Shown one piece after another: positions 8,400 to 11,635 of a stretch of DNA of 64,000 bases. The stretch comes from Pseudoxanthomonas daejeonensis (lineage in GTDB: Bacteria; Pseudomonadota; Gammaproteobacteria; Xanthomonadales; Xanthomonadaceae). Location: the NCBI RefSeq assembly GCF_010093205.1, contig NZ_PDWN01000012.1:62001-126000 (forward strand), read 5' to 3'. The position numbers and the translations under genes were made by a program. The notes beneath the pieces were generated by a model, which was given only the letters and a program-made list of their open reading frames with translations, made no database searches and was not told the DNA's origin. Each line of letters opens with the position of its first letter. Positions within the stretch are counted from its first letter, which is position 1.

Positions 8400-9182
8400 A
8401 TGGCAGAGTTCAGTCTTCCGAAGAATTCCACGGTCAGGAAAGGCAAGCATTTCCCGGCCAAGGACGCGAAGAACCCGCGTACGTTCAAGGTCTACCGCTG
8501 GAACCCGGACGACGGGGCGAATCCGCGCACCGATACCTACGAGGTCGACCTGGCCGCGTGCGGGCCGATGGTCCTGGACGCGCTGATCAAGATCAAGAAC
8601 GAGATCGACCCGACCCTGACGTTCCGCCGTTCCTGTCGCGAGGGCATCTGCGGTTCGTGCGCGATGAACATCGACGGCACCAACACGCTGGCCTGCACCC
8701 GCGCGATCGCGGATTGCGGCAAGGCCGAAGTGCCGATCTATCCGTTGCCGCACATGGAGGTGGTCAAGGACCTGGTCCCGGACCTGACCCACTTCTACGC
8801 GCAGTACGCCTCGATCAAGCCGTGGATCCGCACGCAGACGCCGGCGCCGCCGGACCGCGAGCGCCTGCAGTCGCCGGAAGATCGCAAGAAGCTGGACGGC
8901 CTGTACGAGTGCATCCTGTGCGCATGCTGTTCGACCAGCTGCCCGAGCTACTGGTGGAACGGCGAGCGTTACCTGGGCCCGGCGATCCTTTTGCAGGCCT
9001 ATCGTTGGATCATCGACTCCCGCGACGAGGACACCGGTGCGCGCCTGGACGACCTGGAAGATCCGTTCAAGCTGTACCGCTGCCACACCATCATGAACTG
9101 CGCGCGGACCTGCCCGAAGGGCCTGAATCCTGCGCTGGCGATTGCCGAGATCAAGAAGCTGATGATGGCGCGCCGCGCCTGA
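8400..9182 (+). CDS. sdhB: succinate dehydrogenase iron-sulfur subunit
   Basis: Electron-transfer subunit of complex II, 260 residues. Eleven cysteines supply three clusters: C79, C84, C87 and C99 ([10 protein letters not shown]...C) for the 2Fe-2S centre; C171, C174, C177 and C181 in [16 protein letters not shown]; and C228, C234 and C238 in [15 protein letters not shown], for the 4Fe-4S and 3Fe-4S centres. It lies 95 bp after sdhA and is the last gene of the operon, followed at once by an intrinsic terminator. sdhE, which is adjacent in some relatives, is instead at 18.4 kb. Confidence 0.97.
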
Positions 9183-9223
9183 TCCAGGCCTGGCGGTGGA
9201 GCGATCCACCTGGGCGAGTATCG

Positions 9224-9250
9224 AAAGGCCCGGCAATGCCGGGCCTTTTT
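9224..9250 (+). terminator. intrinsic terminator of the sdh operon
   Basis: A perfect 11-bp stem (AAAGGCCCGGC and GCCGGGCCTTT) with a three-base AAT loop is followed by a run of five T beginning inside the stem. It lies 42 bp behind the sdhB stop, where a transcript end is expected. Confidence 0.9.
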
Positions 9251-9357
9251 CTTTGGTCCTCATGGGCCGCGATACGCAGCCTCGGGTAGTGGTCGAAACT
9301 GCGTACGAGCGGGCATCGCGACCGGAAGGGCCTCGCCCCGGCATGCGGACCCCGCCA

Positions 9358-9408
9358 GCGAATGTCCCCCGGCATCCGCTTGCGCGGCTGCCTCCTCCTT
9401 GATTTCGC
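9358..9408 (-). repeat. REP-like palindromic element, copy A
   Basis: Read on the minus strand this 51-bp block is GCGAAATCAAGGAGGAGGC, a 16-bp GC-rich centre, then GCCGGGGGACATTCGC. Apart from the centre it matches copy B at 9556-9607 (19 of the first 19 bases but one, all 16 of the last), in inverted orientation. The ends can pair (AGCGAA with TTCGCT), so each copy folds alone, and A and B can also fold on each other. The region between the copies (9409-9555) has no credible gene. Confidence 0.75.
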
Positions 9409-9537
9409 TTCTGGGATACGCATGCCAGGTCGAGGCTCGGGGAGTCGAGCTTGTTTCAGCGCGGGATTTCGAACGAGGCTGGCCGGGGCCTGGGCGGAAC
9501 TGCGCTTTCACGGGCAACACACCACACCCGGTTCGTC

Positions 9538-9625
9538 GGTGCGAGGTCTCCTGGCGCGAAATAAAGGAGGAGGCGTCGGCCGCAGGCCGGCGCCGGGGGA
9601 CATTCGCGCCAGGAGGCCTCGCGCC
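9538..9625 (+). repeat. REP-like palindromic element, copy B, with long flanking arms
   Basis: The core (9556-9607) is GCGAAATAAAGGAGGAGGC, 17 bp, GCCGGGGGACATTCGC. Outside it the dyad continues: 9538-9560 pairs with 9603-9625 over 23 positions with only two T-G pairs, enclosing an inner GCGTCGGCC/GGCCGGCGC hairpin. As RNA this would be a very stable 88-nt stem-loop. It lies between convergent genes (sdhB and regA), the usual habitat of REP elements. Together with copy A it forms an inverted doublet of the REPIN type. Confidence 0.75.
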
Positions 9626-9711
9626 TGGCGACACGACCAATTGAAAGAGCGGCCTTTTTGGCGGGTGCTTCTTGCGTGAATCGATGCGCTCGAGGCAGAC
9701 CCGCGCGCCCG

Positions 9712-10263
9712 CTACTTGACCTGCTGCTTGCCGAGCTTGCGCGCCAACGTGCGCCGGTGCATGCCCAGTCGACGCGCGGTTTCGGAAACGTTGAAGCCGG
9801 TCTCGGCCAGCACCTCGTGGATGCGTTCCCACTCCAGGGTCTTGATCGAGCTCTGGCGCTCGCCCAGCGCGACTTCCACGTTACCCCCGGCGCGGCCGAA
9901 CGCGGCCTCGATGTCGTCGGTGTTGGAGGGTTTGGCCAGGTAATGGCAGGCGCCGAGCTTGATTGCCTCCACCGCCGTGGCGATGCTCGCGTAACCGGTC
10001 AGCACCACGATCAGCATGTCGGCATCGTGCGCATGCAGCGCCTGCACGCAGGCCAGGCCGGAACTGCCGCCGGCCAGTTTCAGGTCCACCACCGCATAAG
10101 CCGGAGCGAAGTCGCGCAGCACCTCCTCCAGTTCGGCTTGGCTGGTCGCGTGGCGCACTTCGTAGCCGCGCCGTTCGAACGAGCGCAACAGCGTGCGTGC
10201 GAACGCGGCATCGTCCTCGACGACGAGGAGGCGGCGTAGCGCGGCAGGAGGGTCATTCGTCAT
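9712..10263 (-). CDS. regA: response regulator, RegA/PrrA/ActR family
   Basis: Redox-responsive regulator, 183 residues. The N-terminal receiver has the acidic pair near E16-D18, the phosphoacceptor D60 in AVVDLKL and the conserved K in YLAKPSN. The C-terminal Fis-type helix-turn-helix reads NVSETARRLGMHRRTLARKL. This short receiver-plus-Fis layout is typical of RegA/PrrA. The start at 10263 overlaps the kinase stop (10253-10255); another ATG lies two codons upstream at 10269. Position behind the kinase and the quinol oxidase operon suggests it controls respiratory genes such as cyo. Targets are inferred. Confidence 0.9.
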   Translation of the reverse strand: MTNDPPAALRRLLVVEDDAAFARTLLRSFERRGYEVRHATSQAELEEVLRDFAPAYAVVDLKLAGGSSGLACVQALHAHDADMLIVVLTGYASIATAVEAIKLGACHYLAKPSNTDDIEAAFGRAGGNVEVALGERQSSIKTLEWERIHEVLAETGFNVSETARRLGMHRRTLARKLGKQQVK

Positions 10264-11635
10264 CGGCATCGTCCAGGTCGTTCTCGCCCGCGGTGTCGCC
10301 TGGCAGTGCCAGCGAGGCCAGCGGGAGTTCCAGCACCACCGAGGCCCCGTTCGGGACGCGATTGCTGGCGGCAAGGCGGCCGCCGAGGCTGCGTGCGACG
10401 TTGAGCGAAAGGAACAGGCCCAGGCCACCGCCTGGCCGGCCCTTGCTCGAATTGTAGGGCTTGCCGAAATCGGCCAGGGTGCCGGCGGTGAACCCCGTTC
10501 CGGAATCGCTCACCTTCAGCCGCAGTACTTCGCCGTCCTCACCTTCGCGGGTCACATCGAGGCCGACCCATTGCGGCGACGCCTCCAGCGCGTTGTCGAG
10601 GATGTTGTTGATCATCTGCTTGAGGCCCGAGTCCGACACGATCGGCACGTCGGCATCGAGCTCGCGACGGTAGTCCAGCGTTTCCACCGGCCGGGTGGCG
10701 CTCCATTCGCTGACCAGTTCATCCAGGAACACCGCCAGCGTGGTGTGGGCCGGGGCCTCGCCGCGCGCATCGCCCGCCGACTGCAGGATGCCGGTGACGA
10801 TGCTCTTGCAGCGCACGAGCTGGGTCTGCATTTCGTCCAGGTCCTGCTGGAGGTCGGGGTGCGAGGTGAACGGCTCCATCCGTCGCCAGTCGCCCAGCAG
10901 CACCGACAGGGTCGCCAGCGGCGTGCCCAGCTCGTGCGCCGCGCCGGATGCGAGCAGGCCCATGCGCACGATGTGCTCTTCCTCGACCGCCTGCTGGCGC
11001 AGGTCTGCCAGGCGCGCGTCGCGGTCGCGCAGGATCCGCGCGATGCGCCCGATGAATACCGCCGCCAGCACCGTGGTCAGCAGGAAGCACGCGAGCAGGC
11101 CCTGCACGTAGGGATCGGCGATGCCGCGCGCAGGGTCCGCTGCGAGGGTGACGGGTCCGGGCGATGCCACCAGGTAGAGGACGCCCACGCAGCTGGCCGC
11201 GACCACGACGCGGCCCGCCCAGGCCGGCAGCAGCACCGCGCCCAGGGCGACCTGCAGCAGGTAGAGGAAGACGAACGGATTGGTGATGCCGCCACTGAGG
11301 TGCAGCTGCGCGGTCAGCGCGGCCACGTCGACCAGCAGCGCGACCAGCAGGACCGCATCGCCAACCTCCTGGCGCGGCCGCCAGAACACCAGGCTGGCCA
11401 GGTTGAACGCCGCCAGCCCCCCGGCCACGGTGAGCATGGACACCAGCGGCAGATGGATGCCGAGGACGAAGTGCACGAACGCGATGGTGGCGAGTTGGCC
11501 GACGATGGCGATCCAGCGCAGCTGGATCAGCTGTTGCATGCTGCGGATGCCCGCACCGCGGGTGGTGTCGGTGCGCGCGGACTCGATCGCCTGGCGTTTA
11601 TCGGTGCCGGGAACCGGCGCTTGTTCCTGGGGCAT
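10253..11635 (-). CDS. regB: redox sensor histidine kinase, RegB/PrrB family
   Basis: Inner-membrane kinase of 460 residues. Five or six hydrophobic segments lie between about 38 and 200, then a kinase core with H234 in ASGAAHELGTPLATL. The ATPase boxes INNILDNALEAS, DSGTGF and GGGLGLFLS follow. Between the second and third membrane segments is SGGITNPF (114-121), matching the GG-x-x-NPF heptad of RegB that senses the ubiquinone pool. The redox cysteine described in Rhodobacter RegB has no obvious counterpart in the linker. It overlaps SURF1 by 38 bp at its start and RegA by 11 bp at its end. Confidence 0.9.
   Translation of the reverse strand: MPQEQAPVPGTDKRQAIESARTDTTRGAGIRSMQQLIQLRWIAIVGQLATIAFVHFVLGIHLPLVSMLTVAGGLAAFNLASLVFWRPRQEVGDAVLLVALLVDVAALTAQLHLSGGITNPFVFLYLLQVALGAVLLPAWAGRVVVAASCVGVLYLVASPGPVTLAADPARGIADPYVQGLLACFLLTTVLAAVFIGRIARILRDRDARLADLRQQAVEEEHIVRMGLLASGAAHELGTPLATLSVLLGDWRRMEPFTSHPDLQQDLDEMQTQLVRCKSIVTGILQSAGDARGEAPAHTTLAVFLDELVSEWSATRPVETLDYRRELDADVPIVSDSGLKQMINNILDNALEASPQWVGLDVTREGEDGEVLRLKVSDSGTGFTAGTLADFGKPYNSSKGRPGGGLGLFLSLNVARSLGGRLAASNRVPNGASVVLELPLASLALPGDTAGENDLDDADDE

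Follow-up and report, generated by a model that had tools for sequence, protein, structure and literature searches.

Related repeats and the locus behind sdhB

Several described systems come close to the locus analysed here. REPINs and BIMEs, as treated in passages of PMC3116915 and PMC8266576, resemble it in that inverted palindrome doublets form the dispersed intergenic unit. According to the same passages, recognition of the Escherichia coli REP is strand-specific and its stem irregular; TnpA-REP is described in part of PMC8266576 as binding single-stranded REP and not inverted REP, the bulge being required. MITEs, in the part of PMC3116915 devoted to them, share with our locus a non-coding nature, a length of about 400 bp, inverted ends, and multiplication in some genomes, and the SMAG or GTAG-tagged palindromes of Stenotrophomonas are, by a title cited in PMC3733652, likewise palindromic repeats in related bacteria. 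Rho-independent terminators also place strong hairpins behind genes. Integron attC sites consist of inverted core sites (RYYYAAC / GTTRRRY) used with an integrase, and no such motif is conspicuous in A1 or A2. SMAG and similar palindromes are short and carry a GTAG tag.

In comparison with REPINs and BIMEs, our doublet comprises ~90-nt hairpins whose purine loop is conserved while their arms vary, lacks the GTAG foot and linkage to RAYT genes, and forms a longer unit of two distinct hairpins with inverted ends of its own. It differs from MITEs, apart from a search in which no parent transposon was found, in two internal structured hairpins that seem to be under strand-specific constraint where they sit, and from Rho-independent terminators in that neither hairpin is followed by a T-run and both are located beyond the terminator of sdhB itself. 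The GTAGGAGC palindromes near RAYT genes resemble the SMAG kind, whereas the hairpins of the doublet do not.

The window (the whole 64,000-nucleotide stretch of Pseudoxanthomonas daejeonensis DNA that was analysed) has the following features around the doublet.

8400..9182, plus strand: sdhB (the name given in the original prediction), a 260-aa ORF upstream of the doublet
9223..9249, plus strand: intrinsic terminator-like site, an inverted repeat, with the two-hairpin unit located past it
9337..9429, minus strand: hairpin A, with its core loop at 9363-9400; the 3' end, as judged by eye, is Y-like
9430..9534, no strand: spacer separating hairpins A and B; none found in a scan for sigma-70-like promoters
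9535..9628, plus strand: hairpin B, with its core loop at 9564-9602; the 88-nt hairpin spans 9538-9625, and the arms, as judged by eye, are X-like
9712..10428, minus strand: converging gene, a 238-aa ORF, response-regulator-like by eye, start codon provisional, DNA conserved in relatives

A terminator scan at the window unit returned two sites only, the terminator of sdhB and, within the spacer, a stem of 5 bp. The proposed comparison of this locus across relatives showed the doublet to be present in some and absent from others. The site was viewed in 14 of the 17 same-genus genomes, and the doublet occurs in the genome of the window itself (own genome), G282, G227, and G136. G087 has hairpin B only, G155 retains a decayed pair of hairpins (scores of 34 and 22 bits in the covariance model described below), G262 has the regulator gene directly after the sdhB terminator, and G203 and G239 have different large hairpins (by eye). 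None was seen in the remaining five, two of which have a different gene behind sdhB and one of which ends early. Conservation of the doublet base for base in all relatives, which would have counted against the original prediction, was not observed; among the four carriers, up to 6 of the 17 stem pairs differ in both partners. The sdhB homologues at the 80 loci listed are 73–97% identical, the 97% protein identity being that of a Pseudoxanthomonas, and a search of these loci for the loop pattern gave just three strings with three mismatches and no apparent hairpin of the family. In most of these named relatives, a small gene (sdhE-like by eye; for example, L047, L052, L060, and L062) follows sdhB, and the window carries, at 9183-9711, the doublet and the converging gene in its place. 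Because the relatives and the window differ in this manner, the gap downstream of sdhB is a rearrangement point as well.

Structure and folding of the two hairpins

Each element is a hairpin of ~90 nt composed of a variable outer stem of ~20 bp, a conserved purine internal loop, and an apical stem. The purine side of the internal loop (AAGGAGGAGG / GGGGGACA) is common to hairpins A and B. Two elements facing each other across 147 bp had been predicted with the right coordinates: the core of copy A lies on the minus strand and that of copy B on the plus strand, and the shared 19-nt arms of the two, 147 nt apart, are 95% complementary. The predicted extension of copy B by 23-nt arms into an 88-nt hairpin was confirmed both by the complementarity of the arms (91% for 9538-9560 / 9603-9625) and by folding, with the 88 nt giving –70.4 kcal/mol (z, –9.8) and the opposite strand –57.5. 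Hairpin A also has long arms (9337-9429), and folds at –51.2 kcal/mol (z, –4.3; opposite strand, –43.7). A covariance model trained on 12 hairpins from outside the genome of the window, two of which come from its own genus, recovered the places of A and B in the 64-kb window at E values of 1.3e-19 and 4.7e-14 and no third place, the third line in its output being hairpin B read on the other strand. Since a model built from other genomes recovers both places, A and B are beyond chance.

At the gathering threshold, Rfam 15 assigned only four tRNAs in the window and no family to the hairpins; a search of nine own-genome loci at E values up to 1 gave a single miRNA line (26 bits against a threshold of 104). 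Speculatively, the loop, which contains GGA triplets, might be bound by a CsrA/RsmA-type protein or fold into a G-quadruplex.

Copies and distribution of the family

The family is dispersed, and the motif is not confined to this locus. A similarity search of the own genome (37 contigs) gave 46 lines at E values up to 10. Hairpins with the core account for 13 of these lines; all 13 were recovered again by the independent covariance model, and eight of them sit in four inverted doublets. The count across the genome that the original prediction proposed gave 5 places for GGGGGACATTCGC, with none for the reversed control, and 8 for RAAGGAGGAGGC, with 1 for the control. Within the bacterial family, the exact loop pattern was found in 49 of 297 genomes, which represent 7 of 54 genera; the number of copies per genome ranges from 0 to 68, and the reversed pattern is absent from the rows listed. 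As most hairpins beyond the own genome were found through this exact pattern, the invariance of their loops is partly a matter of construction. In a sample of 369 genomes of the class, the pattern occurred in three. Besides the own genome, these are a second member of its family and G402, which belongs to a different family and whose only match was confirmed by the covariance model. The bacterial family to which the unit belongs is probably Lysobacteraceae.

Of three pattern matches in viral contigs, two were confirmed by the model; L225 694-775 and L227 7351-7430 (IMG/VR contigs) are single hairpins of the family, and the viral filing of L225 may be doubtful because the contig bears metabolic-looking genes. 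Plasmids queried with a composed Y-type sequence and phages queried with the window's own stretch gave no match. The motif strings met only short chance strings in the open-access literature, in which no description of the hairpin family was found. Another repeat family (CCCCCTGAGTAGGGGGCGATTCGTGCCGCAGG...) is present at L212 15476-15669 and in many contigs of G141, with dozens of matches in that genome.

The doublet as a probable mobile unit with inverted ends

That the inverted doublet is the unit, as the original prediction held, was borne out by the four doublets among the 13 own-genome copies and, above all, by genome G065, in which all 21 close pairs are oriented minus-then-plus at 160–187 bp, while 26 of the 68 cores have no exact partner. 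By eye, each close pair comprises one X hairpin (GCGCCGG-type apical stem) and one Y hairpin (CCGCCGCC type). These arm classes, which were assigned by eye throughout, recur in numerous doublets from three further genera (g3, g4, and g28), the doublet of L197 being an exception in which both hairpins look Y-like.

In an alignment of 24 G065 units, the similarity extends to inverted ends, TGGTTCTTC[G/T]CCCAA, and then stops. Both ends are recognisable in 16 of the 24 (up to 3 mismatches in 13), 408–440 bp apart, corresponding to the terminal inverted repeats of MITEs, and one end is unrecognisable in the other eight. In the window copy, the inverted ends of this type are unrecognisable. A T-run lies just outside 17 of the 42 unit ends, compared with 2 of 126 control positions farther out; five ends adjoin an A-run and 20 adjoin neither. 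The flanks of the units are T- and A-rich, and no clear fixed-length repeat was seen as a target-site duplication. One G065 unit is missing from the same gene junction in six congeners, where the gap measures 32–174 bp instead of about 560. The 174-bp gap (L358 in G160) holds CATGTCCCCCG, perhaps a hairpin remnant. On the evidence of these alignments, the doublet, with its two hairpins facing outward, is a unit of 408–440 bp with inverted ends that has multiplied in G065.

No mover was found among the ISL3 and Y1_Tnp families or at the end-like sites in G065. The ends of ISL3 elements, which we take to resemble those of the unit, prompted a test of the ISL3 transposase, which was rejected as the mover with a match in five of nine genomes and none in G065. 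Also rejected were an autonomous element between the G065 hairpins at 2519679 and 2522063, where the gap contains an ORF that looks transporter-like by eye, along with end-like sites belonging to separate units, and an empty site in the comparison of G133 with G169, in which G169 retains remnants of both arms, indicating a deletion.

The TGGTTCTTC inverted ends in G065 also enclose a second structure, in which a long stem bears two small hairpins (CATCCATGG and GACATCCATGTC). This second class of branched hairpin lies between two such ends at L325, L328, and L333, and beside a single end at L338. Two more candidates of the class were seen at L296 and L298 (G065).

Strand-selective pairing and apparent constraint on resident copies

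Arms that vary and keep pairing had been taken as a sign of selection on structure, and both compensatory changes and an excess of G·T pairs agree with this. Among the 13 own-genome copies, 20 of the 26 pairs show double changes that preserve pairing, and 92.8% of the cells pair, compared with 73.2% in shuffled and 33–46% in slid alignments. In the 17 pairs of the outer stem, counted on the purine strand over 209 of 227 distinct hairpins (18 were dropped for having too few pairs in fixed register), the departures amounted to 226 G·T, 12 A·C, and 93 other mismatches, and the bias is absent from positions farther out in the same hairpins (131 G·T, 196 A·C, and 240 other). With within-genome repeats collapsed, the outer stem retains 109 G·T against 8 A·C and 30 other, and the apical stem 62 against 7 and 60. 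A control on GTAG palindromes gave 2 G·T and 3 A·C, from five hairpins only. Since a G·T on the purine strand is an A·C on the opposite one, it is the purine strand that must fold, each hairpin on its own strand. A mobile, strand-selective hairpin family is a description in which we place considerable confidence.

The same excess is found in copies that stay in place. A same-place comparison across related genomes took in 54 pairs of copies, which share genomes, with 13 set aside for shifted register. The one-sided departures from a standard pair comprised 47 to G·T, 4 to A·C, and 34 other, and 55 base pairs were altered on both sides and still Watson–Crick. G133 and G169 alone (14 pairs of copies used) contributed 12 G·T, 1 A·C, and 9 other one-sided mismatches. 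In about 18 hairpins of these two genomes, only 3 of 358 loop sites are different, a comparison that escapes the circularity of the exact pattern on one side only. The apical part differs at 14 of 322 sites, the inner arms at 45 of 719, the next 20 bp at 102 of 676, the remaining surroundings (spacers, outer arms, and partner hairpin) at 289 of 2433, and the flanks at 441 of 5303. Because of the same-place G·T excess and the nearly frozen loop, the hairpin copies seem to be constrained at their resident sites.

Gene context and possible function

With gene context assigned from a home-made ORF score, the 80 doublets comprise 37 in convergent, 30 in tandem, and 3 in divergent gaps, against an assumed value of 20% for the expected share of divergent gaps, with 3 inside ORFs and 7 unclear. 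No promoter-like site was found in the two units scanned. In tandem gaps, the comparison drew on 26 of the 30 doublets and, with one two-doublet locus omitted from the paired count, covered 24 loci; the hairpin that readthrough from the upstream gene would copy in sense fared worse at 7, better at 7, and equally at 10. Upstream-gene readthrough was rejected as the selecting process, co- and counter-oriented hairpins being equal at these loci, and a difference based on means was traced to three hairpins with shifted register. Separately, about eight of nine single hairpins in tandem gaps are oriented against the genes.

We infer that a recombinase mobilises the unit in trans and that the T-runs of intrinsic terminators are favoured places for it to settle. 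Less certainly, the hairpins might function at a transcription boundary in the form of RNA. Polymerase leaking in from either side would produce the functional sense of the far hairpin, and the unit could in this way act as a two-way barrier; alternatively, it may be a site of RNA decay or protein binding between adjacent transcripts. A boundary of this kind, acting in both directions through RNA, would agree with the site, symmetry, and strand bias as read from sequence, and we regard such a boundary function as possible, at a probability clearly below even. In the full reading, the window doublet is a copy, worn at its edges, of a non-coding mobile unit of two hairpins, with a mover in trans and the RNA boundary included; we hold this whole reading tentatively, at somewhat short of an even chance. 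A broader version, in which mobile gene-less cassettes with common inverted ends and exchangeable structured payloads lie beside terminators and are kept as two-way transcription boundaries by selection on RNA structure, would take in the second class of branched hairpins and appears unlikely.

The strand bias of both hairpins, each on its own strand, would also be expected if the unit acted as single-stranded DNA, its irregular-loop hairpins being recognised by a strand-specific recombinase or an ssDNA-binding protein in mobility or chromosome organisation. Such a role would equally explain the indifference of hairpin upkeep to gene orientation, and has a precedent in the single-strand, bulge-dependent recognition by E. 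coli TnpA-REP related in part of PMC8266576. It is at odds with the absence of linkage to HUH genes and with the constraint on resident copies, for which mobility alone has no need, and we consider it rather unlikely.

The inverted ends, the length of 408–440 bp, the lack of genes, the recent multiplication in G065, and the patchy distribution are all those of a purely selfish MITE without function in place, the hairpins of which serve transposition only. The in-place constraint is, however, more than a purely selfish element would need, and the retention of loops and strand-specific pairing in same-place copies weakens this reading to an improbable one.

REP/RAYT elements and mutational explanations

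The original prediction read the doublet as a REPIN moved by a RAYT transposase. Its inverted doublet as a unit stood up, as described above, and membership of the REP/RAYT system fell on size, GTAG foot, and RAYT linkage. Inverted doublets dispersed between genes accord with that reading, as does some Y1_Tnp match in 16 of the 20 further genomes tested. Against it, alignments of the 13 own-genome copies contain no GTAG foot or like tetranucleotide, and the hairpins measure ~90 nt instead of 20–50. The expected flanking of a RAYT gene was not observed, the one Y1_Tnp gene of the own genome sitting among GTAGGAGCGG repeats of another type. No convincing hairpin copy was present at 26 RAYT-type loci (one in the own genome and 25 in the 20 further genomes), where the palindromes differ in type: core-like strings with up to 4 mismatches at L229, L248, and L249 were not confirmed by the covariance model, and its two weak matches at RAYT loci are GTAGGAGC palindromes. 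G169, G201, and G185, which are rich in copies (27, 24, and 19, respectively), gave no Y1_Tnp match. The absence of a transposase from the window holds for the RAYT family, the one checked there. Altogether, the doublet is not a REP/RAYT REPIN, and movement by a RAYT transposase is very improbable. Tandem arrays of GTAGGAGC palindromes (repeat lengths of about 162 and 121 bp) containing RAYT-type genes were seen at L044 1085-3024 and L235 873-2353, and represent a REPIN array of the ordinary kind.

Scarcely credible is a mutational origin of the compensatory changes by replication strand switching, a known process that perfects imperfect palindromes and would suit the long, near-perfect stems, as it would erase G·T and A·C equally, leaves the ratio of 226 to 12 and the frozen unpaired loop unexplained, and is refuted as the whole cause by the strand bias.

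Implications

The doublet family consists of small non-autonomous mobile repeats, a variant for which no earlier description was found in the open-access literature. The usual explanation for small palindromic repeats of bacteria is that they are REP/RAYT elements or neutral MITEs; here, a mobile unit seems to retain its strand-specific structure wherever it has inserted, and the unpaired loop is the slowest part to change. Whether dispersed hairpins act where they are located thereby becomes a question testable by deletion and compensatory mutation in ordinary laboratory strains. The count of G·T against A·C is a simple test that may be applied to other repeat families.
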